DNA of 64,000 nucleotides from Salinigranum marinum (GTDB lineage: Archaea; Halobacteriota; Halobacteria; Halobacteriales; Haloferacaceae). Shown piece after piece: positions 34,491 to 60,712 of this stretch. Numbering within the stretch: the first letter of the stretch is position 1; each line of letters opens with the position of its first letter. The stretch covers positions 3,407,398 to 3,471,397 of the forward strand of contig NZ_CP100461.1 of NCBI RefSeq assembly GCF_024228675.1, in the 5' to 3' direction. The notes under the pieces are model-generated. The model was not told the origin of the DNA. It did not search any database and saw only the letters and a program-made list of their open reading frames with translations. A program made the position numbers and the translations under genes.

Positions 34491-35435
34491 TCACACCTCG
34501 GGTTCGATGTAGACCATCCCGATCCGGTCGTCGAGCCCGCGGAGTTCGTCCTCGATCGCCGTGACCTCGTCGTCGATATCGCCCGTGTCGCGGTCACCGT
34601 CGAAGCTCACGTCGGCGGCGACAAGCACGTCCCCCGGGCCGAAGAAGACGGTCCGGAAGCGATCGATGTGGACGACGCCGTCGTGGGCGGCGATGGTCTC
34701 CCGGAGGCGGTCTTCGACGTCCTTCGGGAGCGACTCGCCGAGGAGGAGCCGCTTGTTCTCCCACGCGAGCGCCACGGCGAACCCCATCAGCAAGAGGCCG
34801 ATGATCACGGCGGCGAACGAGTCGTAGATCGGGTTGCCCGTCACCCGCGTGAGGACGATACCGACGAGGGCGATGGCCGCGCCGGCGAGGGCGATCGCGT
34901 CCTCGGTGTACGCCGTCAGGGTGGTGACGTCGCTGGTCTTCTTGAACGCCTCGACGATCCCCGACCAGCCGTACGCCGTGATCTGCCGGTTCATCTCCGC
35001 GTTCGCCTTCGCGAACGCGTACGTCTCGAAGGCGATCGCGCCGACGAGGACGACGACGTTCACGAAGAAGGGATCGATCGTCGTCCCGAACAGGGTGAAG
35101 GTGCTTCCGCCACCGCCGTGACCGGGGTGGAGGACGGCGTCGTAGCCGTGTTTCAGCGACTCCCAGCCGGCGATGCCGAACAGGAGGACGGAGACGAGAA
35201 ACGCGTAGAAGAACTGCGCCTTGCCGTAGCCGAACGGGTGCTTGCGGTCGGCTTTCCGGCCGCTGTAGCGGATGCCGACGAGCAGGAACACCTGGTTGCC
35301 GGTGTCGGAGATCGAGTGGTACGTCTCCGAGAGCATCGAGGGACTGCCGGTGAGGAGGAAGCCGCCGAACTTCAGGATCGCGATGGCCCCGTTGGCCACG
35401 AGCGCGGCGAGGACGACGGAGGTACTACTGCCCAT
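34491..35435 (-). CDS. cation diffusion facilitator family transporter
   Basis: A 314-residue heavy-metal efflux protein. Metal-binding residues are seen in helix 2 (LSETYHSISDTGNQ, the HxxxD type) and helix 5 (TEDAIALAGAAIALVG). About six helices precede a C-terminal cytoplasmic domain (about 215-314), with DDEVTAIEDELRGL at its end. The family exports zinc, iron or manganese for protons; which metal cannot be told. A long glycine/histidine-rich loop (LHPGHGGGG) near residue 105 may bind metal. It starts 93 bp from a divergent phosphodiesterase. Confidence 0.92.
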   Translation of the reverse strand: MGSSTSVVLAALVANGAIAILKFGGFLLTGSPSMLSETYHSISDTGNQVFLLVGIRYSGRKADRKHPFGYGKAQFFYAFLVSVLLFGIAGWESLKHGYDAVLHPGHGGGGSTFTLFGTTIDPFFVNVVVLVGAIAFETYAFAKANAEMNRQITAYGWSGIVEAFKKTSDVTTLTAYTEDAIALAGAAIALVGIVLTRVTGNPIYDSFAAVIIGLLLMGFAVALAWENKRLLLGESLPKDVEDRLRETIAAHDGVVHIDRFRTVFFGPGDVLVAADVSFDGDRDTGDIDDEVTAIEDELRGLDDRIGMVYIEPEV

Positions 35436-35527
35436 ACGCCCCGGAGTCGCGGACCCGTGTTACCTGTTTGGGTCTTTCGTCCGGTCCGCGCCGGTACCTT
35501 CCTGTACCGTCGCCGCTTCCCCCCGGT

Positions 35528-36043
35528 ATGCTCGTCGTCGTCTCCGACACGCACGCCCGAACCGACCATCGACTCGCGGGCCGCACGCTCGACGCCGTCC
35601 GCGAGGCCGACCTGGTCGTCCACGCGGGCGACTTCAACCGCGAACCAGTGCTCGACGCCTTCCACGACGTCTCGACGGAGCTGCTCGGCGTCTACGGCAA
35701 CACAGACGACGACGCCGTCCGCGACCGGCTCCCGCGCGCGAGGAACTTCGAATACGGCGGGCTGACGTTTGCCGTCACTCACACCCGACGAGGGGGACCG
35801 ACGGCGCTATCGCTGTTCGGCCGCGAGCGCGACGCGGACGTGGTCGTTTTCGGGCACTCCCACCGGCCGATGCTCGACCGATCCGGTCCGGTTGCGCTGC
35901 TCAATCCGGGAAGCCACGCCCAGCCACGGGGCAACCGGTCCGGACACGCCGAACTCGACGCCGTCACCGACGGCGTCCGCTGTCGACTGGTGACGCCCGA
36001 CGGCGAGGCGTTCGAGCGGACGACGCTCACGCGTCGGCGGTGA
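35528..36043 (+). CDS. metallophosphoesterase (YfcE/MJ0936 type)
   Basis: A 171-residue calcineurin-like phosphoesterase. Metal ligands: VVSDTHAR (start), HAGDFNREPVLDAF, VYGNTDDDAV, VTHTRRG and FGHSHRPM, all in order. This is the archaeal MJ0936-like form, which hydrolyses phosphodiesters in vitro. ATG 35528 is preceded by a short C-rich leader; no upstream start fits the fold. Cellular substrate unknown. Confidence 0.9.
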   Translation: MLVVVSDTHARTDHRLAGRTLDAVREADLVVHAGDFNREPVLDAFHDVSTELLGVYGNTDDDAVRDRLPRARNFEYGGLTFAVTHTRRGGPTALSLFGRERDADVVVFGHSHRPMLDRSGPVALLNPGSHAQPRGNRSGHAELDAVTDGVRCRLVTPDGEAFERTTLTRRR

Positions 36044-36231: not shown

Positions 36232-37227
36232 TCATCGCGTCACCCACCAGAGGGCGAAGCCCCCGAACAGCACGGTCGCCCCGCCCAGAAAGAAGACCAG
36301 TCCGGGCGACGCCGCGAGGCCGTCGACGACTGACGGCTGGGCCGCGGCGGCCGTCTCGACCGTCGTGGTCAGATCGGCCTGCGGGATCTCGGTGGCCGTC
36401 CGCGTCGCGATCGGTGCCGGGGTCGGCGTCGATCCCGCGGTCGGCAGCGGGGTCGTCGTCCCTGCCGTCCCCGCCAGTTCGGTCGGGGTCTGGGTCGCGG
36501 CCGTCGCGGGCTCGGCGGTCGAGACCGTCTCGGCGGCCGTGCCCGCTGGAGTCGACGCCTCGGTCGGCCCGGTCGTGGTCGTCGTCGCCTCGGCGATGTT
36601 GAAGCCGCCGCCGTCGGTCGGGGGCTGGGTCGTGATTTCGGTCGCCGTCGGCGTCTCGGTCTCCGTCGCCGCGTCACCCACGCTCGCGCTCGTCCCCGCG
36701 TCCCCTGCGGCTTCGGTTTCGGGCGCTTGCGCTGGTGCGGCACCGCCGTCGGCACCACCTCCGCCACCGGCCGAACCGAGGCCGACCGAGAGGCCGCGTC
36801 GGGCGAGCCGGTCGACGAGGACGCTGGCGACGCCGAGGACGCCGACCCCGCCGAGGAGGCGCGAGAGCGCCGCTTTCACCCCCGTCGTCTCCTCCTCGCG
36901 TCCGGCGACGACGACGAGGGCGCGGTCGGCGGGGACGTAGACGTTCATCTCCCGGCCCTTCTCGGAGTACACCGTGTCGCCCACCTCCACGAGACCCGCG
37001 TCCTCTAGCTTGCGGAGGTGGTACTGCACGTTCTGCAACGAGGTGTCGACGCGCTCGGCGAGCGCCGAGGCGGCAGCGGGCTCTTCGTGGAGGGCGGCGA
37101 GCACTTCTCGCGTGGTGGTCGACGAGAGGGCGTCGATGAGTTCGTCGGCGGCGTCCGAGTCGAGGCCGACGACCCGCGGTTCGTCGCTCGGGTCGATATC
37201 GGGTTTGGAGGGCAGCAGACCGGCCAT
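36232..37227 (-). CDS. membrane-anchored ArsR-type winged-helix protein with Thr-rich linker
   Basis: A 331-residue protein. Residues about 25-105 are an ArsR-like winged helix (STTTREVLAALHEEPAAASALAERVDTSLQNVQYHLRKLEDAGLV, then a wing). A hydrophobic stretch (about 125-143) is followed by a low-complexity region of about 160 residues rich in Thr, Ala, Pro and Glu (TPTATEITTQ..., TPTPAPIATRTATEIP), and a C-terminal transmembrane helix (GLVFFLGGATVLFGGFALWWV). The DNA-binding part is presumably cytoplasmic and the linker outside the membrane. The family of haloarchaeal HTH proteins with a C-terminal helix is known, but I do not know its targets. Confidence 0.85.
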   Translation of the reverse strand: MAGLLPSKPDIDPSDEPRVVGLDSDAADELIDALSSTTTREVLAALHEEPAAASALAERVDTSLQNVQYHLRKLEDAGLVEVGDTVYSEKGREMNVYVPADRALVVVAGREEETTGVKAALSRLLGGVGVLGVASVLVDRLARRGLSVGLGSAGGGGGADGGAAPAQAPETEAAGDAGTSASVGDAATETETPTATEITTQPPTDGGGFNIAEATTTTTGPTEASTPAGTAAETVSTAEPATAATQTPTELAGTAGTTTPLPTAGSTPTPAPIATRTATEIPQADLTTTVETAAAAQPSVVDGLAASPGLVFFLGGATVLFGGFALWWVTR

Positions 37228-37870
37228 CGGTCGGGCGTTTTCGCGCCGCGCGTATCAGTGTTGCTTCACGAGTCGTCCTCGACCGACCGTCGCGGCAACC
37301 CCGCGCAGGACACACGGGACCGCCGTCGCGTGGCTGCACGCGCGATTCGCGGTTCCCCTGGAACCACCCAGTCGGCCTATTCGACAATGTCGAAGAGCGC
37401 TTGACGACGGAGTCATGGGCTCGTTCAATACGCTTTGTCGCCGCCGTGAGCGTCGAAACCGCGGAACTCCCGACGTTTCCCGGTTCCGACCGGTCGCTGC
37501 TGGGTGTGGTTCCGTTGACCGGCACTCGTCGTAGCAAATATATCTATTTGCACTACTGCCAGGAGGAACAAATATAATACGAGGTAAAAAGAAGAAAACA
37601 ATCTTAAATACTAGATATAATACGAATATAAATGGTTAATAGGGACAAAAACAAAAATAAAGTTGAAATACTGAGTGCCACAAAAACAACGATTTAATTG
37701 TATACGTCGAAACGTGTCGTTTATCGAACCAATACGGTTCGAAAATATCGAACTATTTGATGCGCCACGACGCACACACCGTCCCGACGGCGAGACACTG
37801 TGGCCGGCTGCTGTTACACTCATACTGCTGTAATATGATGCCGTCGAAGCGGAGACCCTGGCCGGTCAGT
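37228..37870. other. AT-rich gene-free region at the left edge of the catabolic region
   Basis: About 640 bp without a supported gene. From 37540 to 37760 the DNA is strikingly A/T-rich (runs such as GGTAAAAAGAAGAAAACAATC), unlike anything else here. ATATAATACGA occurs twice (37572-37582 and 37615-37625). Short open frames here have no protein-like character. I see no ORB-type origin repeats and no orc1/cdc6 nearby. It could be a decayed insertion, a large promoter area, or a boundary of an acquired region. Confidence 0.6.
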
Positions 37871-38638
37871 TCACAGGTAGCTCATGTTGAGTTCGATCTC
37901 GTTCGTCAGCCCGAGGATCATGTCGGGGAGTTCCCGTTCGAAGTACTCGCCTTTCAGGCGGTTGCTGGGTCCGGAGAGGCTGAACGCGCCGAGGACGTGT
38001 CTGGCGGGGTGTCGGACCGGCGCACCGACCGCCCGGAGGCCGGCGTGTGACTCCTCGCGGTTGAGGGCGAACCCGCGCTCGCGCACGGTGGCGAGTTCGT
38101 CGTACAGCTCCGCGCGGTCCGTGATCGTCTCCGCGGTGAACTCGGGCAGCCCCCAGCGGTCGATGATCTCGTCGACCCGCGCCTCGGGCAGGTGTGCGAG
38201 GATCGACTTGCCGGCGGAGCTGTCGTGGAGGAAGATCCGTTTGCCCGCCCGCGCGTCCGCCTCGACCGCGTTCTCCCCGATCGCGGTGTAGATGTAGTAG
38301 CCGCGCCCGTTCTCCTCGACGACGAACTGGACCCGCTCGCCCGTCCGCTCGGCCAACTGCTCCACCTTGTCCTCGACGAGCGCGTACCCCTGTTTCCGGG
38401 AGCGCGCGTACCCTCCCTTGTTGAGGAACTCCAGCCCGACGTAGTAGCTGTCGCCCTCCTTCACCAGATACGAGTTGTAACGGAGCGTCGAGAGGTAGCC
38501 GTGGACGGTGCTCGGCGGGAGGTCGAGGTGCGAGGCGAGTTCGGTGACCCGCGCCCCGTCGAGTTCCTGGATGGCGTCTACGATCTCGAACGCCGTCGAG
38601 AGGGTCTTGAGCGAGTCGCCGTCTGTACCGGGTGTCAT
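37871..38638 (-). CDS. IclR family transcriptional regulator (catabolic cluster)
   Basis: A 255-residue regulator. HTH at about 12-68 (TELASHLDLPPSTVHGYLSTLRYNSYLV); effector domain with SSAGKSILAHLPEARVDEII and ERGFALNREESHAGLRAVGAPV. It sits at the edge of the catabolic gene region, the usual place for an IclR sensor of the substrate. A perfect inverted repeat overlaps its promoter. Not closely similar to the first IclR gene (14-781) beyond the shared family motifs. Confidence 0.94.
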   Translation of the reverse strand: MTPGTDGDSLKTLSTAFEIVDAIQELDGARVTELASHLDLPPSTVHGYLSTLRYNSYLVKEGDSYYVGLEFLNKGGYARSRKQGYALVEDKVEQLAERTGERVQFVVEENGRGYYIYTAIGENAVEADARAGKRIFLHDSSAGKSILAHLPEARVDEIIDRWGLPEFTAETITDRAELYDELATVRERGFALNREESHAGLRAVGAPVRHPARHVLGAFSLSGPSNRLKGEYFERELPDMILGLTNEIELNMSYL

Positions 38639-58733: not shown

Positions 58734-59341
58734 CCGCGCTGTCGCTGTCGGACGACGGTGACCTGCTCCCGCCGACCTGCGTCCGCTCTCACGCGCGGGT
58801 CAGCGACGGCGCTCACCGGTCGCCTCCGTGGCTCGCTGGTCGACGATCCCACTCACCCGGTGCGGCCGAGCGCCAAAAATATATTTTTTCTGCTATTTAT
58901 GAAAATATATAAGAAATATTACTAAAGTCCCGTCGGAATACGTGATCCGGTCCCGTCTCCCGAGTCGGATGGCGATCGGGTCGGGCGGTCGCCGGTCTCC
59001 CCTCCCCGAGACGCCAGTATCGGGCGTCGCCGCCTCGGTCCGGATCACGGTCGACAGGGTACGGACGAGTGGATCTCCGAACCGCCGCGGATCGGTTCCC
59101 GACGCCGCCGCCGGCTTGTCGTCGTCGCGCCGGCCATCGCGTGCGACTCCTCCGTGTCGGAACGCCGGGGAGATCACACCCCACGACCAATAATACGAAT
59201 TCTGTTATATATTTACATCTGTTAGTTTTGACGAGTGTTCCACGGCTAGCGGACTGGTGGACGCGCTCGTCGTCCGACGCACCGCGCCGTCCGGACGCCG
59301 ACCCCGAAACGGCTTTACCCGCGCCGCGGATAGCGCCGTGC
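58734..59341. other. AT-rich gene-free spacer at the right edge of the catabolic region
   Basis: About 600 bp without a supported gene. Strong A/T runs at 58875-58925 (AAAAATATATTTTTTC...) and 59190-59225 (TAATACGAATTCTGTTATATA) stand out. Between them the DNA is GC-rich and its open frames on both strands look spurious. ATAATACGAAT at 59190-59200 also occurs in the AT-rich region at 37617. Patches may be promoters or decayed mobile DNA. Confidence 0.55.
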
Positions 59342-59512
59342 ATGCTCCCCGTCGCACCCGCGATCGGAGTCGTCGACACGCTCACGAACGACCCGATCCT
59401 GGTCGCGCTCGTGCTCGGGCTACTCCTCACCGTGTTCTTCGGTTACCTCTACGTCCGCCGGACGCTCATGAACCTTCGCGACGGCTACGAAGACGCCTAC
59501 CGCGGGAAGTAG
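59342..59512 (+). CDS. 56-residue membrane protein upstream of the phosphate transporter
   Basis: A small frame from ATG 59342. It has one clear transmembrane helix (LVALVLGLLLTVFFGYLYVRR) and a charged C-terminal tail (NLRDGYEDAYRGK). Its stop is directly followed by the ATG of the transporter (zero gap), so the two are one operon. The tail is basic and acidic, probably cytoplasmic. It may be an accessory subunit of the transporter; I know no defined function. Confidence 0.72.
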   Translation: MLPVAPAIGVVDTLTNDPILVALVLGLLLTVFFGYLYVRRTLMNLRDGYEDAYRGK

Positions 59513-60712
59513 ATGGTCGCGACAGCGACCATCGCGACGTTCGTCGTCGCCGCGCTCGCCTCGCTGTTCATGGCGTGGTCCATCGGCGCGGGCTCGTCGG
59601 GGTCGACACCGTTCGCCGCGGCGGTCGGGGCGAACGCCATCTCCGTGATGCGGGCGGGCTTCGTCGTCGGCGTGCTGGGCTTTCTCGGGGCCGTCCTGCA
59701 GGGAGCAAACGTCACCGAAGCGGTCGGGACCGAACTCATCGCGGGCGCGACGCTCACGGCGACCGCCGCCATCGTCGCGCTACTGGTCGCCGCCGTCCTG
59801 GTCGCCATCGGCGTCTTCGCCGGTTATCCGATCGCGACCGCCTTCACCGTCACCGGCGCGGTCGTCGGCGTCGGCCTCGCGCTCGGCGGCGACCCCGCGT
59901 GGGCGAAATACCGCGAGATCGGGACGCTCTGGGTGCTCACGCCGTTCGTCGGCGGCGGCATCGCCTACGCCACGGCCCGGCTCCTGCGGAACGAGGGCGT
60001 CCCCGAGCGGGTCGCCGTCCCCCTCCTCGCCGGCATCGTCGGCGGGATCGTCACCAACATCGAGTTCGCGGTTCTCCCGGGCCCCGACGGGAGCGGGTCG
60101 ATCGCCGGCGCGGTCGCCCGGACCGGCGTCGTTCCGGCGTCTCCGCTCGCCGCCCGACTCGCCGTGACGGTCGCGCTGTCGGCGGTCGTCGTGGCCGCGC
60201 TCGCCGCGGAGATGCGGAACAACGCCGCACGCGGCCAGCGCCGGTTCCTCCTCGTGCTCGGTGGGCTGGTCGCCTTCTCGGCGGGGGGGTCACAGGTCGG
60301 CCTCGCCATCGGGCCGCTCGTCCCCCTGCTGGGCGAGTTCGCTGTTCCCCTTCCTGCGGTGCTCGCCGGTGGCGGGCTCGGCCTCCTCGCGGGATCGTGG
60401 ACGGGCGCGCCGCGCATGATCAAGGCGCTCGCGCAGGACTACTCCTCGCTCGGTCCCAGACGCTCCATCGCCGCCATGATCCCCTCGTTCGCGATCGCAC
60501 AGACCGCCGTCGCGTTCGGTATCCCCGTCTCGTTCAACGAGATCATCGTCAGCGCGATCATCGGATCGGGCTACGCCGCCGCGAACGAGGGCGGCGGTGG
60601 CGTCAGCGCGTCGAAGATGGGGTACACAGTCTTGGCGTGGCTCGGCTCGCTCGCGCTCGCGTTCGGACTCGGCTACGGTGCGTTCACCGCGATCGACTCA
60701 CTCCTCGGCTGA
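59513..60712 (+). CDS. pit: inorganic phosphate transporter (Pit family)
   Basis: A 399-residue membrane transporter of about ten helices. The Pit repeats are visible: FMAWSIGAGSSGSTPFAAAVGANAIS (first) with GAVLQGANVTEAVG, and MIPSFAIAQTAVAFGIPVSFNEIIVSAIIGSGYAA (second). It imports phosphate or metal phosphate with cations. The helices are alanine/valine rich. It starts directly after the small membrane gene. Its last 15 bp overlap the 3' end of the convergent gene at 60698-61015. Confidence 0.9.
   Translation: MVATATIATFVVAALASLFMAWSIGAGSSGSTPFAAAVGANAISVMRAGFVVGVLGFLGAVLQGANVTEAVGTELIAGATLTATAAIVALLVAAVLVAIGVFAGYPIATAFTVTGAVVGVGLALGGDPAWAKYREIGTLWVLTPFVGGGIAYATARLLRNEGVPERVAVPLLAGIVGGIVTNIEFAVLPGPDGSGSIAGAVARTGVVPASPLAARLAVTVALSAVVVAALAAEMRNNAARGQRRFLLVLGGLVAFSAGGSQVGLAIGPLVPLLGEFAVPLPAVLAGGGLGLLAGSWTGAPRMIKALAQDYSSLGPRRSIAAMIPSFAIAQTAVAFGIPVSFNEIIVSAIIGSGYAAANEGGGGVSASKMGYTVLAWLGSLALAFGLGYGAFTAIDSLLG

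Follow-up and report, generated by a model that had tools for sequence, protein, structure and literature searches.

Archaea are known to use one-component regulators that are bound to the membrane (PMC10269533, PMC6396743), and in one survey archaeal genomes are credited with an average of 4 transmembrane transcription regulators (TTRs; PMC10269533). TTRs such as ToxR and CadC are described there as having a DNA-binding domain and a transmembrane (TM) segment in one chain. ArnR and ArnR1 of Sulfolobus acidocaldarius are archaeal proteins with an N-terminal helix-turn-helix (HTH) and two C-terminal TMs, the TMs of ArnR being preceded by putative HAMP and sensor domains (PMC6396743). In Haloferax volcanii, HVO_1944 and HVO_0306 are both listed as 'probable transmembrane glycoprotein/HTH domain protein', and mass spectrometry of glycopeptides gave an N-glycan for HVO_1944 and an O-glycan candidate for HVO_0306 (PMC8241124). 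By these accounts, neither a transcription regulator in the membrane nor a membrane HTH protein with glycans is a new kind.

The protein described here is encoded in the window, the whole stretch of 64,000 nucleotides of Salinigranum marinum DNA that was analysed. Like the TTRs, it has a DNA-binding domain and at least one predicted TM in a single chain, but it has two TMs around a disordered loop and is without a folded outside sensor domain. Unlike ArnR, it gave no HAMP or sensor Pfam match between the HTH and the TMs, and its winged helix continues straight into the helix at residues 111–143. The Haloferax proteins are likened to it by description, as membrane HTH proteins; their domain order is probably the opposite, because Sec/SPI processing is predicted for them (PMC8241124). 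The whole architecture is shared with the Pfam family PF24267 (HVO_1552_C), although the linker of the window protein is much longer and more Thr-rich than that of most members. PF24267, PF25258, DUF7859 and HVO_1552 are named in no paper of the literature searched, so within that scope the family is known as a Pfam entry only, and searches for work on membrane-anchored haloarchaeal regulators gave no study of it. New here are the sequon evidence for an outside loop, the variable loop length and the divergent pairing with DUF7859. Family, architecture, topology signals and synteny were established by computation.

Domain architecture and the PF24267 family

Pfam searches with the window protein matched HTH_20 (E 4.8e-15) and HTH_5/ArsR (E 1.5e-6) in the N-terminal part and HVO_1552_C C-terminal to the HTH (E 2.4e-15; 56.9 bits, cut-off 27). 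The HVO_1552_C match to TM2 is weak and stands apart from the rest (25.2 bits). The protein is a member of PF24267: its score lies above the curated cut-off, and the N-terminal winged helix and both membrane helices are kept. In an AlphaFold model built with 56 sequences, the winged helix had a pLDDT of 90–97, and helices at 111–143 (holding TM1) and 308–330 flanked a disordered linker with a pLDDT mostly below 50 over residues 155–260. Residues 148–306 are 24% Thr, 23% Ala, 13% Gly, 10% Pro and 7.5% Glu, with a single Arg and no Lys. Hydrophobic stretches lie at about 119–142 and 303–330; TM1 alone is a weak membrane helix (best 19-residue mean hydropathy 1.9), yet a hydrophobic stretch is kept at its position in all family members examined. 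The architecture proposed in the first-pass annotation, an ArsR-type HTH followed by a membrane segment, a Thr-rich linker and a C-terminal membrane helix, was thus confirmed by Pfam, composition, hydropathy and AlphaFold. The reading frame is real, as orthologues in three other Salinigranum genomes gave a dN/dS of about 0.1 in the HTH part. Feature coordinates are collected in Table 1.

Table 1. Features of the regulator gene and its surroundings, in window coordinates
Feature	Position	Strand	Basis
Membrane-tethered winged-helix regulator (predicted), PF24267 family, 331 aa	36232..37227	-	ORF, ATG start; Pfam; AlphaFold
Winged helix of ArsR type (aa 17-108), with near-invariant recognition helix SLQNVQYHL	36904..37179	-	Pfam, AlphaFold, Foldseek, alignment
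TM1 (aa 121-142), Gly-rich, within predicted helix 111-143	36802..36867	-	Hydropathy, AlphaFold, alignment
Disordered linker (aa 148-300), Thr/Ala/Gly/Pro-rich, predicted extracellular	36328..36786	-	Composition, AlphaFold, sequon and K/R statistics
Conserved linker motif GGGFNIAEATTTTTG (aa 206-220)	36568..36612	-	Motif comparison
TM2 (aa 308-330), PGxxFFxGG at start, then short basic tail	36238..36306	-	Hydropathy, AlphaFold, alignment
Metallophosphoesterase (Metallophos_2), convergent conserved neighbour	35468..36043	+	Domain assigned on S. salinum orthologue
Cation efflux (CDF) transporter, conserved neighbour	34491..35435	-	Domain assigned on S. salinum orthologue
DUF7859 (PF25258), small one-TM protein, 22 kb from regulator here	59342..59512	+	Profile, synteny
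CGAAACGGCTTTA, core-promoter-like element conserved ahead of DUF7859	59305..59317	+	Locus comparison
PHO4-family transporter, directly after DUF7859	59513..60712	+	Domain assigned on S. salinum orthologue

Foldseek searches with the AlphaFold model placed ArsR-type winged helices of Pyrococcus (1uly, 2p4w) at the top ranks. The winged-helix fold is also that of the ArsR/SmtB metal sensors, PH1932 and Phr, but the window protein has no Cys anywhere and scored 35.7 bits with the metalloregulator model NF033788, below the cut-off of 55. An ArsR/SmtB metal sensor was therefore rejected, on a criterion that covers Cys ligands and not sites made of Asp/His only.

Of 292 genomes sampled from the class, 275 had PF24267 above threshold. 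A phylum-wide draw gave 48 of 246 genomes, 42 of them in the order of the window genome; the remaining 6, from other orders, scored weakly. The architecture is thus that of a family near-universal in the class, and the earlier view that Thr stretches are not usual in regulators fails. The window genome has two PF24267 genes. One is the window gene, which the search reports in two stretches; the other encodes a short paralogue of 208 residues with a 34-residue linker, for which AlphaFold predicted helices at 113–144 and 180–206 with a small helix between. In a FastTree phylogeny of 69 members rooted at the midpoint, a long clade of Haloferacaceae type (signature DRALVVVAG), which includes the window protein, is separated from a short clade, and the two diverged paralogue groups occupy different loci.

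An alignment of 56 of the 69 members shows the recognition helix to be near-invariant, between paralogues too, with Q65, N66, Y69 and H70 in all 56 sequences. The window genome and related genomes also carry soluble winged-helix paralogues (L181, at G000:C1:1268600-1270600, L183 and L186); these are without membrane helices. Their recognition helix and wing (YSxxGxEM) are nearly the same as those of the tethered family, so the tethered and free forms may share DNA sites. No operator was found for the window regulator.

The arrangement of a DNA-binding part followed by a TM, an outside loop and a second TM resembles that of SREBP, and it would suit regulated intramembrane proteolysis, in which a cut in or near TM1 frees the winged helix as a soluble factor. 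Such release is quite unlikely here. TM1 is Gly-rich, and the soluble paralogues suggest that a free form could work; however, no conserved cleavage site was seen, the identified conserved neighbours include no protease gene save an M29 metallopeptidase past the adjacent genes, and archaeal DNA can be reached from the membrane without release.

Topology signals and the variable linker

Sequons were counted in 45 members (the 69 less 24 near-identical rows) and in a held-out set of 60 further members, from which none was dropped. In the linkers, 17 of 31 Asn of the first set (shuffle mean 6.7) and 44 of 79 of the held-out set (16.1 expected, shuffle maximum 29) lay in N-X-S/T sequons, counts reached by 0 of 5000 shuffles in either set; as the rows are homologous and hence not independent, shuffle counts are not formal probabilities. 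Asn is rare in family linkers and, where present, is mostly within a sequon. Long orthologues occur in Haloferax profundi (L196), with three sequons in its linker, and in H. larsenii (L244). By contrast, sequons were below expectation in the first 108 residues (5 of 97 Asn, mean 12.6, and 7 of 134, mean 18.4), and such a difference within a single protein speaks for a linker on the outer side of the membrane. Lys and Arg make up 2.2% and 1.6% of linker residues in the two sets against 8.0% and 7.1% of the first 108 residues, and C-terminal tails are basic: 44 of the 45 members of the first set and 54 of the 60 held-out members have Lys or Arg within the last six residues. Sequon enrichment, K/R depletion and basic tails across the family support the proposal that the DNA-binding part is inside and the linker outside.

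In the window protein itself, TM1 is followed by DRLARR, which runs counter to the positive-inside rule and against the proposed topology. These charges and the modest hydropathy of TM1 across the family (1.48–2.59 over 19 residues) would fit TM2 as the sole membrane span, with a cytoplasmic linker and TM1 serving as a dimer helix or an amphipathic one. We regard that arrangement as very unlikely, given linkers that are sequon-enriched and K/R-depleted and a basic C-terminus that would fall outside the cell.

The stalk had also been called glycosylatable, which fits the sequon-enriched linkers of the family but not N-glycosylation of the window protein, whose linker has one Asn and no N-X-S/T sequon; only O-glycosylation could therefore apply to it. 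Judging from the family's sequences, this loop probably serves as a flexible spacer that is glycosylated. A PGF-CTERM archaeosortase anchor was considered, as TM2 looks similar. None was matched in the window protein among NCBIfam models up to E 10 or among the best 25 Pfam rows, and the candidate was rejected for this protein; single family members, for which 25 of 80 model families were covered, may still match. The 'PG' before TM2 is conserved, and Phe comes next only in L006 and L079 among the 69 members.

Linker length ranged from 32 to 185 residues in the 69 members and from 34 to 185 at 80 loci of named genomes, which overlap the earlier genome set. At the syntenic locus common to Halorussus and Halobacterium, the linker can be about 40–45 residues, and in Salinigranum and Haloferax it is about 154–185 residues at that locus. 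Within Salinigranum, dN/dS was about 0.4–0.6 in the linker, about 0.1 in the HTH and TM1 and about 0.1–0.2 in TM2. The linkers of L025, L155, L168 and L173 are 38–43% Asp/Glu in place of Thr-rich. Neither the length nor the Thr-richness of the linker is conserved across the family. Stalk growth through tandem DNA repeats was not borne out, as just short imperfect arrays of 2–5 copies were found.

A short motif, FxIAEAT, lies inside the linker in a minority of members. The form [FVGIM]xIA[EQ]xT was found in 5 of 60 held-out members against 0.05 expected by shuffle, a strong excess for a form devised after the held-out rows were seen; a looser form was weak (6 of 60; shuffles gave 1.2 on average, and 6 of the 2000 reached the observed count), the patterns having been devised after the first set.

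These data bear on the possibility that the glycosylated Thr-rich stalk is a true surface sensor that contacts the S-layer and relays the state of the envelope to the promoter. Many archaeal S-layer proteins are reported to have Thr-rich disordered regions (PMC8559796), the family linkers are sequon-enriched, and some members share the short motif; but the linker shortens to about 43 residues at the same syntenic locus, some linkers are acidic, and the motif is confined to a minority. A sensing stalk is accordingly rather unlikely, and the comparison of linker length, composition and rate of evolution lends no support to the idea of a stalk that by itself signals the state of the cell surface.

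Gene neighbourhood and DUF7859

The convergent metallophosphoesterase was present in 52 of the 80 named loci and the cation efflux gene beyond it in 51; the first locus sets gave 23 and 22 of 41 (one locus being without a family match near its middle). A gene for DUF7859, a protein of about 40–73 residues that has a single TM and a tail of basic character, lies divergently upstream within 500 bp in 49 of the 80 named loci (by pattern), all 49 of which also have the convergent metallophosphoesterase. By profile and hand count, the divergent pair was found in 18 of 60 genomes. DUF7859 occurred as a single copy in each of 54 of the 60 genomes searched. In 36 of these 54, the window genome among them, it is not adjacent to the regulator. 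PHO4 was near DUF7859 in 17 of the 80 named loci and 11 of the 41 first-set loci. This synteny may be inherited gene order, and DUF7859 is likely, from its position, to be a target or partner of the regulator at the ancestral locus.

Similarity between the window and the three other Salinigranum genomes ends at about 37262 and resumes at about 59282; thus, in the window genome a 22-kb insert within the upstream region that they share lies between the regulator and DUF7859–PHO4. The segment at 37263–59281, about 22 kb, is absent at that place in the three other genomes. It carries an IclR regulator (37871–38638) and AT-rich stretches near its ends, and no tRNA was found anywhere in the window.

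The element CGAAACGGCTTTA starts about 37 bases ahead of the DUF7859 gene. By hand count, 33 of the 38 copies found have CGAAAC or CGAAAT as their first six bases, including 16 of 18 copies from loci where the regulator is non-adjacent; 2 of 20 such loci gave none. As it is kept at those loci, the element reads as a core promoter and is no proven operator. The upstream AAAGCCGTTTCG was likewise not supported as an operator of the regulator, being a core-promoter-like DUF7859 element kept even with the genes far apart.

A protein that is mainly a tether, keeping part of the chromosome at the membrane and regulating little in response to signals, would account for a near-invariant recognition helix, a linker free to vary and the lack of a folded sensor domain in the AlphaFold model. 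This role is improbable, as both the two diverged paralogue groups at different loci and the divergent gene pair suit a regulator better.

The membrane hairpin and a proposed model for signalling

In the same 56-sequence alignment, the invariant or near-invariant positions C-terminal to the winged helix lie mostly within the two membrane helices, with P308, G309, F313, G315 and G316 kept in 54–56 sequences. Since conserved positions concentrate there, and the linker varies whereas the recognition helix and hairpin do not, we think the membrane hairpin (PGxxFFxGG) a likelier sensor than the loop, which is probably a spacer.

On balance, the window protein is probably a membrane-tethered one-component transcription regulator with an outside spacer loop, sensing through the hairpin and acting on DUF7859 and its own promoter. 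DNA binding, the sensed signal, the targets and glycosylation of the window protein itself are inferred. The ArsR-type winged helix would be cytoplasmic and bind DNA in its existing form; TM1 would leave the cell, the disordered loop would lie outside beneath the S-layer, and TM2 would re-enter to place the basic C-terminus inside. As a flexible, probably glycosylated spacer, the loop would be free in length and letters within limits, with few Lys or Arg and a composition rich either in Thr/Ala/Gly or in Asp/Glu. The conserved Gly-rich hairpin would most likely read the signal, either the state of the membrane or a membrane partner, and a signal there would alter DNA binding. The regulator would be likely to act on its own promoter and on the divergently placed DUF7859 gene, which in Haloferacaceae is followed by PHO4.

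A bolder version, a two-part and near-universal haloarchaeal envelope switch in which glycosylated loop and hairpin both read S-layer or membrane state and DUF7859 is partner or main target, is doubtful; if true, glycosylation or S-layer state would be written directly onto a promoter. Nearly every sampled haloarchaeon has a PF24267 regulator, paired with a divergent tiny membrane protein where the ancestral locus is kept. If the topology holds, these are DNA-binding proteins with an outside, probably glycosylated loop, and envelope-to-promoter reporting in archaea that have no outer membrane would be directly testable in Haloferax.
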